Of a stretch of 34,043 nt of DNA, positions 25,053 through 28,000 are shown piece by piece. The first letter of the stretch is position 1, and each line of letters opens with the position of its first letter. Both the position numbers and the translations under genes were made by a program. Where the stretch lies: positions 1 to 34,043 of the forward strand of contig JAFSIA010000043.1 in assembly GCA_017440045.1 (NCBI GenBank), given 5' to 3'. Source of the stretch: Lachnospiraceae bacterium. GTDB lineage: Bacteria > Bacillota > Clostridia > Lachnospirales > Lachnospiraceae. Below the pieces are notes generated by a model. The model made no database searches. It worked only from the letters and a program-made list of their open reading frames with translations, and was not told the origin of the DNA.

Positions 25053-26099
25053 TTAAAAGTACCTCTTCCTATCAGCCTTAATTCGCTTACTTAATTTAGA
25101 TACTTCCTTATGCCACTTTTGCTTATCTCTCATATATGCCATCTTGTCATCTGAATATTTTGCTTCATTTTTGAGATTGCAATAACTATTCCAACGCTCC
25201 CTAGACAATTCTCCGCTTTCTATAGCTGCCCTTATGGCACATCCAGGTTCAGTAATATGTTTACAGTCATTAAATTTGCATTTTCCCAAATACTTCTCGA
25301 CATCAGTAAATGCTTCTTCTAATCCGCTTGAAACATCCCACATTCCTAGTTCACGCATTCCCGGAGTATCGATAATCATAGCCCCACATTTAAGCATAAT
25401 AAGCTGTCTATGTGTTGTAGTATGCCTTCCCTTGCTATCATCCTCGCGTATTCCACTTACAGCCATAATTTCCTCACCTGCAAGTCGATTTACAAGACTG
25501 GACTTACCCACACCAGATGAGCCAAGAAATACAATTGTTTTCGATGGCTTTAAATATCCCATCAATTCTTCTATTCCATCACCTGTTTTAGCGCTTACTA
25601 TGTGAACATTTACCCCAAAAGCAACTCTCTCCACAGCGCTTATGTAATGATTATATTCCTCTACCAAATCTGCTTTTGTCAAGACAATAACAGGTGTGGC
25701 CCCTGACTGCCATGCCAATGTCAAATATCTTTCAAGGCGTTTTTCATTAAAATCCATATTAAGAGATTGCATTATAAATACATAATCAAAATTTGCCGCT
25801 ACTACCTGTTCTCCGCGCCCCGGAGTAGGATTTCGACGCAAAAAGAATGTCTTACGCGGCAATGTAGCAATAATCTGGCTATCTCCATTGTCAATATAGT
25901 TTATTAAAACAAAATCACCTGTTGTAGGAAATTCTTCATATCCACCATAATACTCCTTTGTTTTTAGCCTTGCGTACAACTCTCCATACTCACACACTAC
26001 TTGATATCGTTCCTTATGAACTGCAGTAACCCTAGCTGGAACTGCTGCCATATTTTCTGATTTCATATCTTCTGTAAATCCATAATCTTTTATATCCAT
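25053..26099 (-). CDS. rsgA: ribosome small-subunit-dependent GTPase RsgA
   Basis: A 348-residue circularly permuted GTPase that assists late 30S maturation. Order of parts: OB-fold (about 18-90), GTPase with G4 LTKADL (about 142), G1 GSSGVGKSS (about 194) and G3 DTPGMRE, then a zinc site (CKFNDCKH...GC, about 275-290) and a basic tail. It is longer than the roughly 290-residue Firmicutes form usually found beside prkC and rpe, so it may be a second copy. GGAGG precedes the start. The only clear promoter upstream lies beyond two terminators and a mini-ORF, which implies attenuation. Confidence 0.93.
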   Translation of the reverse strand: MDIKDYGFTEDMKSENMAAVPARVTAVHKERYQVVCEYGELYARLKTKEYYGGYEEFPTTGDFVLINYIDNGDSQIIATLPRKTFFLRRNPTPGRGEQVVAANFDYVFIMQSLNMDFNEKRLERYLTLAWQSGATPVIVLTKADLVEEYNHYISAVERVAFGVNVHIVSAKTGDGIEELMGYLKPSKTIVFLGSSGVGKSSLVNRLAGEEIMAVSGIREDDSKGRHTTTHRQLIMLKCGAMIIDTPGMRELGMWDVSSGLEEAFTDVEKYLGKCKFNDCKHITEPGCAIRAAIESGELSRERWNSYCNLKNEAKYSDDKMAYMRDKQKWHKEVSKLSKRIKADRKRYF

Positions 26100-26163
26100 T
26101 TTTTATTTCCTCCAAAAAATTTATTAATATAATTTGCTTGTTTCTTAACACTAACTCATTCAT
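26032..26163 (-). CDS. possible 43-residue leader ORF overlapping the start of rsgA
   Basis: A frame of 43 codons starts at ATG 26163 with AAGGAG 8 nt upstream, one of the better ribosome binding sites in the region. It reads in another frame across the rsgA start and stops at TAG inside rsgA (26032-26034). The first residues are MNELVLRNKQIILIN. It may couple ribosome traffic to rsgA initiation or be chance. No homology is recognised. Confidence 0.35.
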   Translation of the reverse strand: MNELVLRNKQIILINFLEEIKNGYKRLWIYRRYEIRKYGSSSS

Positions 26164-26203
26164 ACTTAAAACTCCTTTCCTATTTTTTTACTGAAAAAGG
26201 ACA

Positions 26204-26249
26204 TAAAAATACCGTAAGAAGCAACCCTAATAATTGCTACTCCTTACGG
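26204..26249 (-). terminator. second terminator of the rsgA leader
   Basis: Minus strand: outer arms CCGTAAG/CTTACGG (26243-26249 and 26212-26218) and an inner AGCAA/TTGCT stem, followed by TATTTTTAT. It lies about 15 nt beyond the first leader terminator and upstream of rsgA. Confidence 0.75.
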
Positions 26250-26263
26250 TTAATTATAGGTAT

Positions 26264-26288
26264 AAAAATAACACACCCTAAGAGTGTG
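26264..26288 (-). terminator. first terminator of the rsgA leader
   Basis: Minus strand: 7-bp stem CACACTC/GGGTGTG (26282-26288 with 26272-26278, one T-G pair) with a 3-nt loop, then TTATTTTTA. Confidence 0.75.
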
Positions 26289-26433
26289 CTACAACCAATA
26301 GTTATAGTATTCACAAAAGGTTACTTAAAACGGCATAGCAAAACAAATCGTAGTTGTCCTGCAACTTCGATTAATCTAAATCGCAGTTGTTCTAAGGTCT
26401 ACCACAATTTAACTGCCAGCGCCCTTATTCAGT

Positions 26434-26466
26434 TTAAACTTCAATTCCCTCGCTACAAACTGTCAT
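26434..26466 (-). CDS. 10-residue leader peptide MTVCSEGIEV
   Basis: ATG at 26466 with AAAGGAG 8 nt upstream, ten codons, then TAA (26434-26436). It begins about 40 nt after the predicted transcription start of a fully consensus promoter. The strong initiation signals on such a tiny frame argue for a regulatory leader peptide rather than a protein. No recognised peptide family. It is too short for coding statistics, so this rests on the signals around it. Confidence 0.5.
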   Translation of the reverse strand: MTVCSEGIEV

Positions 26467-26511
26467 TATTTTTTCTCCTTTCGTCATCTGCTTTCGCAGT
26501 TATTTTGTGAC

Positions 26512-26540
26512 ATTATAACACTACAAAAGGTTGCTGTCAA
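26512..26540 (-). promoter_or_regulatory. fully consensus promoter of the rsgA leader
   Basis: Minus strand: -35 TTGACA (26535-26540), 17-bp spacer, -10 TATAAT (26512-26517); both boxes match consensus exactly. The -35 box sits within a hairpin (26527-26552) that probably also terminates the upstream HAAS gene. Confidence 0.88.
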
Positions 26541-26552
26541 TTCAGCAACCTT
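26527..26552 (-). terminator. hairpin after the HAAS-domain gene
   Basis: Perfect 10-bp stem AAGGTTGCTG/CAGCAACCTT (26527-26536 and 26543-26552) with a 6-nt loop, 30 nt beyond the upstream gene's stop. The minus-strand tail is a short TTTTG, so efficiency may be moderate. It overlaps the -35 box of the rsgA leader promoter. Confidence 0.6.
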
Positions 26553-26582: not shown

Positions 26583-27605
26583 TTAGCGCTTGTCATACTT
26601 ATATGTCTTATAGATGGTTACGCCTGCTTCTATAAATGCAATAAGGCAAATGATTCCCACTATAATGTCACTAATTAAATCACTTCCCCAGTAACGGAGT
26701 ATGTCGCCTTTAGCAAATTCTGTTTTACCAAGGTATTCTTTAAGCTGCTCCCCAAAACTAGGATTCCATATATTCATACATTTAAATGCTATAAACGCAC
26801 ATACTACGCTGATTGCATTACATATAATGCTACTATACATAACCACTTTGCAGTATTGACCATATATTAATCTGATTATCTCATCAAACATACATACCGC
26901 CAAGGAAAACACAAAAATTGGCACTATACTGCTCCACTCAGCTAAATTAAAGATACATCCTACACTTCTTATTCCATCATCTGTGCTTTCAAACATTCCA
27001 AACACTTCCGGCACAAACACAAGCACACCTGCAAAGGCAACCATTATAACTATGCTTATGACACTGTCCGCGCGACTTATAAGAGATTTCTTATCAGGAA
27101 CAGCCGGCAATGCCGACGGAGACCACTTAACGTCTGGCTTTATATCAAGTTTTACCTTGTAATGTTCCAGTATTGCAAAAATAATTGTCACAACACCTAC
27201 CATAGCGCATGCGCCTGAAGTGATAGTCGTTAATCCTTCCTTAAAAAATCCTTTAAGAAAATCCTTAATATCTCCTGCACCTGTAATACCATGAACAATG
27301 CCGGAAACAATTGCTGATATGCCTATGGCAAGTAAACCAATCTTCAATATCCATATATAATTATCGTAATAGTCAGGACCTATAACGTAGTTGTTATCTC
27401 CTCTGTATCTCTTTGCAAAATCAGCAGGATTACCAAGCTTCTCTAATACCTGTTCTACCGAGCACTCTTCCTCCTCACGCATGTCCTCAATAAGCGCCTC
27501 TAATTCCAGCTTTATCTCCTGACGCATATTTTGAGGCACTCTTTTGGTAACCTCATAAATATATCTTTCTGTCATGTCCTTTTCGCTTATGTTCTTCTCA
27601 CTCAT
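26583..27605 (-). CDS. HAAS-domain membrane protein (DUF1700-like), partner of PadR
   Basis: A 340-residue protein with an N-terminal cytoplasmic HAAS-type domain (about 10-75: YIYEVTKRVPQNMRQEI and LEKLGNPADFAKRYRG), then about six membrane segments. HAAS heads are commonly encoded beside PadR regulators and are thought to act in signalling or permease control. The start overlaps the PadR stop by one base (TAATG), so expression is coupled. Function of the membrane part is unknown. Confidence 0.8.
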   Translation of the reverse strand: MSEKNISEKDMTERYIYEVTKRVPQNMRQEIKLELEALIEDMREEEECSVEQVLEKLGNPADFAKRYRGDNNYVIGPDYYDNYIWILKIGLLAIGISAIVSGIVHGITGAGDIKDFLKGFFKEGLTTITSGACAMVGVVTIIFAILEHYKVKLDIKPDVKWSPSALPAVPDKKSLISRADSVISIVIMVAFAGVLVFVPEVFGMFESTDDGIRSVGCIFNLAEWSSIVPIFVFSLAVCMFDEIIRLIYGQYCKVVMYSSIICNAISVVCAFIAFKCMNIWNPSFGEQLKEYLGKTEFAKGDILRYWGSDLISDIIVGIICLIAFIEAGVTIYKTYKYDKR

Positions 27606-27940
27606 TATTTATCATCTCCTATTAAACTCTTCATTCCCTCTGACATCTTATTCCACTGTTCTACTAGCTCGTTATATATAGTGTCACCATATACTGTTCT
27701 CTTATAATACTTTCGCGGCTTAGCCTCATCTGTATTCCACTCACTGCAAAGAAGCTCCTGCTTCTCAAGTCGTCTAAGTAGCGGATATAATGTGTTAGCA
27801 TCTATGGATATTCCCTTTTCCTCCAGATTCTGAACCAATGCATATCCATATCTTGCCTCGCCTAGCTGACTTAAAACGCAGAGTATCAAGGTACCACGAC
27901 GCAGCTCTGAAAGTAGGCTCTCTAGTAAATCTTTTTCCAA
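27605..27940 (-). CDS. PadR-family transcriptional regulator
   Basis: A 111-residue winged-helix regulator: LRRGTLILCVLSQLGEARYGYAL, then the NTLYPLLRRLEKQELL recognition region, and YYKRTVYG in the wing, followed by a short helical C-terminus. A TTG start at 27940 with GAGGTG upstream is chosen: the promoter at 27971-28000 would put the longer frame's ATG at the -35 box. It is translationally coupled to the HAAS protein. Effector unknown. Confidence 0.85.
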   Translation of the reverse strand: MEKDLLESLLSELRRGTLILCVLSQLGEARYGYALVQNLEEKGISIDANTLYPLLRRLEKQELLCSEWNTDEAKPRKYYKRTVYGDTIYNELVEQWNKMSEGMKSLIGDDK

Positions 27941-27970
27941 AATATCACCTCTTTTATATTGTGTGATATT

Positions 27971-28000
27971 ATTATAGTGTATGTCGCACAGTATTGTCAA
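27971..28000 (-). promoter_or_regulatory. promoter of the padR-HAAS operon
   Basis: Minus strand: -35 TTGACA (27995-28000) and -10 TATAAT (27971-27976) with an 18-bp spacer. TGTG and CACA half-sites flank the -10 (about 27962-27990), a plausible place for PadR autoregulation. Confidence 0.75.

Follow-up and report, generated by a model that had tools for sequence, protein, structure and literature searches.

Leader-peptide attenuators are known, and the closest precedent for the locus described here is the HflXr (rli80) attenuator of Listeria monocytogenes, in which mutation of the leader start codon prevented induction (PMC6310831). Like rsgA2, the gene studied here, HflXr is a second paralogue of a ribosome GTPase. 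In both cases a short leader ORF lies inside an anti-antiterminator, which we propose to be formed here by pairing of the Shine-Dalgarno (SD) sequence with an anti-SD box, and a terminator precedes the gene. The two differ in that HflXr is another GTPase and its peptide carries an RLR macrolide motif, which was not seen among 81 peptides of rsgA2-type and similar leaders (PMC6310831). The uORFC-6-1 element, found mainly before hflX, is likewise a uORF motif of Firmicutes that shows covariation and precedes the gene of a ribosome factor, but the gene is a different one and the peptide contains an Arg-Leu-Arg motif (PMC8632094). In the toiL uORF of Escherichia coli topAI, the signal is a ribosome held at the start codon by tetracycline or retapamulin, as we propose for rsgA2; toiL, however, acts on translation, with Rho-dependent termination following and no intrinsic terminators, and its target is unrelated (PMC12121999). 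The vmlR and bmrCD leaders of Bacillus subtilis also attenuate transcription in the leader region of antibiotic-related genes; their targets are different (PMC9226507, PMC4191407). In the open-licence literature we found no paper on an rsgA leader, and the main text of two ncRNA surveys does not contain the term 'rsgA'. No Rfam 15 family reached its gathering score on the leader of the window or of 12 related loci, all matches at the leader's place being below it. Within the open-licence literature and Rfam 15, what is new is the target, the peptide and the range of genes preceded.

The window is a stretch of 34,043 nucleotides from Lachnospiraceae bacterium (GCA_017440045.1, contig JAFSIA010000043.1, positions 1 to 34,043, forward strand). 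The gene following the leader had been described as rsgA. Its product does belong to the RsgA family, scoring over the cut-off for both PF03193 (180.7 bits) and TIGR00157 (182.1 bits), but it is not the housekeeping protein. A further RsgA, with a 296-aa open frame, is encoded in the same genome. We built a tree from 57 RsgA proteins, some of them partial and with types labelled beforehand by similarity; in it, 41 RsgA2-type sequences are separated from 16 housekeeping-type sequences by a 100/100 branch. The genome has one protein on each side, and the window protein lies outside the clade of the shorter RsgA proteins of the order. Judged by the tree, the window gene is a second RsgA paralogue, which we call rsgA2. 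The RsgA family acts on and binds the 30S subunit.

Features of the rsgA2 leader region in the window, in the direction of transcription.
Feature	Position	Strand	Basis or remark
Promoter TTGACA-17-TATAAT	26512..26540	minus	12/12 consensus, TG before -10
Leader SD GAAAGGAG; also 5' strand of long-range helix P0	26475..26482	minus	sequence
Leader ORF MTVCSEGIEV, 10 codons	26434..26466	minus	sequence; short ORFs at the same place in relatives
Helix P1, 5' arm GGCGC	26419..26423	minus	P1 covaries in relatives
Inserted palindromic repeat (three 11-nt arms)	26339..26389	minus	outside the conserved leader
Helix P1, 3' arm ATGCC	26332..26336	minus	P1 covaries in relatives
Anti-SD box AACCTTTTGTGAATACTAT; 3' strand of P0	26304..26322	minus	conserved in alignments A1 and A2
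Hairpin P3 CTATAAC/GGTTGTAG, between anti-SD box and terminator 1	26289..26307	minus	by eye, A1 and A2
Terminator 1 and U run	26262..26292 (hairpin 26292-26268)	minus	terminator scan; RNAalifold on A1 and A2
Terminator 2 and U run	26205..26250 (hairpin 26250-26211, then TTTTT)	minus	minimum-energy fold
Possible second short ORF, 43 codons, out-of-frame overlap with rsgA2 start	26032..26163	minus	own SD
rsgA2, second RsgA-family GTPase, 348 aa	25053..26099	minus	PF03193, TIGR00157; tree

The leader region contains elements expected of a ribosome-mediated attenuator: a promoter, a short ORF with an SD and an intrinsic terminator before the gene. The exact-consensus promoter, the 10-codon ORF with its ribosome binding site, the two terminators and the lack of a further promoter had all been noted in the preliminary description, and each is borne out. 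In the 4 kb scanned, promoter-like sites overall occur at shuffle level (15 versus a mean of 16.5), and only two sites score 12/12. Between position 26512 and rsgA2 the scan finds no promoter-like site at 9/12 or above on the minus strand. Boxes resembling the promoter can be seen by eye at the same place in several relatives. Terminator-like sites in the 4-kb scan are also at chance (2 versus 1.9); terminator 1 is flagged by the scan, and terminator 2, which is not, appears in the minimum-energy fold. Terminator 2 is not seen in two related leaders (L057 and that of genome G002). The 409-nt leader folds better than 100 of 100 shuffled sequences, with a z of -5.6 that owes part of its size to the repeat and the terminators.

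Several other features of the surroundings were recorded. A perfect 10-bp inverted repeat at window 26527-26552 overlaps the -35 box; L057 has an altered, still palindromic version at this position, so the repeat may act either as operator or as upstream terminator. Short ORFs overlapping the start of the gene, similar to the one listed in the table, occur, as a raw count, in 31 of the 59 loci checked. Just upstream, at window 26583-28000, lie what we take to be a gene for a PadR-like small regulator and one for a membrane protein with a DUF1700-type start. At the window edge (12-179) there is a TwoAYGGAY RNA (Rfam RF01731, 105.8 bits).

Conservation is the strongest argument against a chance arrangement. 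Starting from a seven-sequence profile, we built two covariance models of the leader, R1 from 44 rsgA2 leaders and R2 from 29 mixed leaders. The search covered the best 80 contigs retained from 200 loci coding for relatives of the window protein; R2 matches upstream of rsgA2 in 73 of them at E <= 0.05 and in 71 at E <= 0.01. Fifteen of the 80 had been used in training R2; among the other 65, 58 match. Across the 73 matched contigs the leader occurs in 71 different sequences, and the distance from its end to the start of the rsgA match is 74-352 nt. Of the seven contigs that R2 does not match, two have too little upstream DNA (L062, L082) and five have ample (L096, L099, L102, L130, L131). By record titles, the matched taxa include Lachnospiraceae, Oscillospiraceae, Christensenella, Peptococcaceae and one Paenibacillaceae strain. 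What is conserved before rsgA2 in many Bacillota comprises the SD, the ORF, the context after its stop codon, P1, the anti-SD box and the terminator, so the expectation that the mini-ORF would recur upstream of rsgA in relatives was confirmed.

The linkage is to one kind of RsgA gene. No match to the leader models at E <= 1 was found at 15 housekeeping-type rsgA loci of relatives, nor an R2 match at the housekeeping locus of the same genome. Among ten more distant RsgA2-like loci (L031, L033-L041), one, L033, matches R1 at E <= 0.01 (L039 has an E-value of 0.59); because of this, the leader, as traced by these models, belongs to part of the RsgA2 clade. A search of 391 class genomes for the exact 19-nt consensus form of the anti-SD box, from which the window box differs by one base (T for C), gave 5 genomes, and the reversed control gave none. 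In all five it precedes an ORF recognised by eye as RsgA2. Spread by mobile elements was considered and set aside: in one query each, the L057 leader has no match in plasmids and phages, and the exact box none in viral contigs.

A similar leader is found before other genes. When R1 was run on 295 genomes of the order, 28 genomes were matched, the source genome included. The 29 loci (L142-L170) have an RsgA2 relative in 17 cases and another context in twelve. These twelve include seven MutS2-family genes, a tetracycline ribosomal-protection-type gene (L161), an Lsa-like ABC-F gene (L168), a GNAT acetyltransferase gene (L166), an ORF 301 nt on from the leader that we assume to be RidA-like (L162), and a leader at a contig end (L169). 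R2, applied to two families, matched 7 of 16 and 15 of 38 genomes and added one tetracycline-type locus (L177), one Lsa-like locus (L178), two MutS2 loci (L179, L182) and one rsgA2 locus (L181). Besides rsgA2, the leader is thus associated with nine MutS2-family, two tetracycline-type and two Lsa-like ABC-F loci. All nine MutS2 frames exceed the TIGR01069 cut-off. The tetracycline-type and ABC-F frames are clipped at the locus end and score below curated whole-protein cut-offs, and we therefore regard these genes, from their partial frames, as relatives and not as typed resistance genes.

Seven MutS2 leaders, L161 and L166 were part of the R2 training set but not of that of R1, which finds these nine with per-genome E-values of 2.5e-8 to 2.7e-4. 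Three others are weak singly, again as E-values per genome: L168 (0.003, R1), L177 (0.0035) and L178 (0.006), each of which could be chance at such a search size. What favors all three is that a protection-type gene follows immediately and that SD, short ORF and terminator come in the right order, but no clear anti-SD box can be made out by eye in L168 and L178. Several of the nine MutS2 leaders (the nine are L151, L156, L158, L160, L163, L165, L170, L179 and L182) show a changed SD:anti-SD pairing, AAAAGG:CCUUUU, and another terminator. In B. subtilis, stalled ribosomes are reported to be split by MutS2 (PMC10897456).

The leader peptides share a pattern near their end. Among 81 distinct leader ORFs, a count that leaves out L148 and L149 (wrong stretch cut, no ORF) and in which the script mis-picked some starts (for example in L058, L061, L080, L165 and L179), the fourth codon counting back from the stop is Val in 63 and the third is Ile or Val in 50. 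The codon preceding the conserved Val ends in G in 63 of 63 cases although it encodes different amino acids (Glu, Met, Leu, Ser and others), which suggests that peptide and RNA may both be constrained. The window leader is atypical, with the repeat insertion, a shortened P1 (about 4 pairs left, by eye in A1) and Gly at the usual Val codon.

For both A1 and A2, RNAalifold predicts a pairing between the leader SD and the box (GAAAGG:CCUUUC), helix P1 and the terminator hairpin. In A3 (44 sequences), 94.9% of the P0 and P1 cells are paired, versus 39-58% in slid versions. The covariation score of the two helices exceeds that of 500 of 500 shuffles, and four of six P1 pairs and one of six P0 pairs change on both sides. 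Other measures are unexceptional: five pairs changed on both sides compare with a mean of 3.4, with 56 of 500 shuffles as high, and the number of pair types is reached by 80 of 500 shuffles in A3 and 93 of 500 in A4. In A4, the mixed set, four pairs change on both sides, as high a number occurring in 9 of 500 shuffles, and the outer P0 pair is GC in 16, AU in 6, GU in 3 and other in 4 sequences (n=29). The SD:anti-SD pairing is thus supported by covariation in the alignments. Two further pairings were rejected by eye. A Trp-type alternative, in which the 3' arm of P1 would pair with the 5' arm of the terminator, fails where P1 is GUACC and the terminator is unchanged, and an extension of P3 (GUG:CAC) into the terminator is not kept in the MutS2 leaders, L078 (Acetivibrio mesophilus), L072 and L112.

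The fold predictions point weakly to a second partner of the anti-SD box, the terminator. Complementarity to the box is -6.1 kcal/mol for leader terminators and -4.3 kcal/mol for control terminators, calculated with 78 leader terminators from 46 of 81 loci (the script gave no usable box or terminator at the remainder) and 123 control terminators from the same contigs. Against shuffled boxes, p <= 0.05 is reached in only 10 of 46 loci, with a median of 0.15. In the 46 partial transcripts, SD:anti-SD pairing dominates without a ribosome or with one at the stop codon. Placing the ribosome at the start codon raises the mean computed anti-SD:terminator pairing from 0.28 to 0.79 in A1 and from 0.11 to 0.52 in A2; the window's own value rises from 0.00 to 0.78. 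Folded singly, the partial transcripts of L057 and L083 show no such shift; in L083 the nascent terminator rises from 0.15 to 0.64 with the ribosome at the start. Once complete, the terminator hairpin wins in every ribosome state (means of 0.78-0.90), and therefore the switch can only be kinetic.

Based on the conservation of the leader before rsgA2 and the presence of a similar leader before ribosome-protection-type genes, we suggest that the region probably controls rsgA2, which encodes an accessory paralogue of the 30S GTPase RsgA, by ribosome-mediated transcription attenuation. The arrangement suggests a gene switched on when ribosomes are jammed. Transcription would start at the strong promoter and normally end at terminator 1 or 2, and a ribosome would translate the leader ORF of about 10 codons. 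When the leader SD is empty, the anti-SD box (AACCUUUCGUGAAUACU), just before the terminators, would pair with it to form P0. A drug or another stress that holds the ribosome at the leader start would block P0. The freed box is then predicted to capture the forming terminator by its purine-rich top or 3' arm and so to delay the hairpin, which would let RNA polymerase continue into the gene and RsgA2 be produced. Because E. coli ribosomes stall at start codons in the presence of tetracycline (PMC12121999), start-codon-stalling drugs such as tetracycline would be the first candidate inducers. The most likely role of RsgA2 would then be to shield 30S subunits or to clear them. Antibiotic sensitivity has been reported for a cpgA mutant of B. 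subtilis (PMC12445079). As E. coli RsgA is reported to be capable of inactivating ribosomes and inhibiting T4 phage (PMC10475562), a shut-down role for RsgA2 may, by analogy, also be considered.

The same switch could respond to a different signal. The attenuator might sense the general state of translation, such as a shortage of free 30S subunits or the initiation rate, and not antibiotics; RsgA2 would be made when initiation on the leader changes, as a homeostatic control of 30S maturation. The mechanism overlaps the one we favor and the signal differs. The action of the RsgA family on the 30S subunit fits this possibility, as do two results: the computed fold changed with a ribosome at the start but not with one at the stop, and the RLR drug-stalling motif is absent from the 81 leader peptides, some of whose starts are mis-picked. 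The similar leader before tetracycline-type and ABC-F-type genes points instead to drug stress, and we consider sensing of the translation state rather unlikely, if credible. That the leader does not switch at all, being a gene for a small peptide that ends at terminators of its own, with leaky read-through supplying rsgA2, is clearly less plausible. A strong promoter, complete terminators and a complete hairpin that prevails in every folded state would be expected of such a gene; conservation of the context after the stop codon, of helix P1 and of the anti-SD box, all between the ORF and the terminators, would not, nor would retention of the leader upstream of a small set of gene families.

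The anti-SD box resembles the 3' end of 16S rRNA, which raises the question whether RsgA2 binds its own leader RNA as a mimic of its 16S rRNA site and thereby controls termination. RsgA proteins bind the 30S subunit, and solved structure entries include RsgA chains. This kind of autoregulation is nevertheless very unlikely, as a similar leader precedes the unrelated MutS2, tetracycline-type and ABC-F proteins. An amino-acid attenuator of the trp or ilv kind would share the leader ORF and terminator, and Val and Ile are frequent near the stop; inspection by eye of the 81 distinct ORFs found no single-amino-acid run, and the downstream genes have no biosynthetic theme, making this reading highly improbable.

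The core idea of the preliminary description, a leader-ORF attenuator controlling an rsgA gene, agrees with the conserved leader and its occurrence elsewhere, but the switch had been placed in the three 11-nt arms. Elsewhere in the genome, five intergenic sites carry similar copies of the stretch containing them. A scripted palindrome pattern (AATCGnAGTTG...AAyTnCGATT) fits all five, and it is also present in 5 of 5 loci of genome G005 and 2 of 3 loci of G003 fetched for the repeat. The leaders of G002, G004 and G006 lack this stretch. A similar palindrome at several unrelated intergenic places is characteristic of REP-like elements, and by its distribution the repeat is an inserted dispersed element that is not part of the switch. 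That the arms form the terminator/antiterminator switch is hardly credible: they exist and can pair in two ways, but they belong to this dispersed repeat and failed the expectation of conservation upstream of rsgA in relatives, being absent from 28 of 28 other rows of A1. Matches to the Y1-transposase family with internal stop codons were seen in the same genome (G000:C2:28798-29889; L137-L140). A link between repeat and transposase was set aside: none of these four loci carries a copy of the repeat.

We favor the attenuator reading, and a broader version of it can be put forward tentatively: one old attenuator family that senses start-codon-held ribosomes may induce tetracycline-type GTPases, ABC-F proteins, MutS2 and RsgA2 in Clostridia, with RsgA2 as the 30S counterpart of HflXr. 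If true, RsgA2 in this role would represent a new kind of inducible protection factor, and the accessory RsgA of many Bacillota would be a drug- or stall-induced ribosome factor. MutS2 under such leader control would merit its own study. The leader would also serve as a sequence signature for finding further ribosome-protection genes, and it allows a direct test of whether a start-codon-arrested ribosome can control termination through its own SD.
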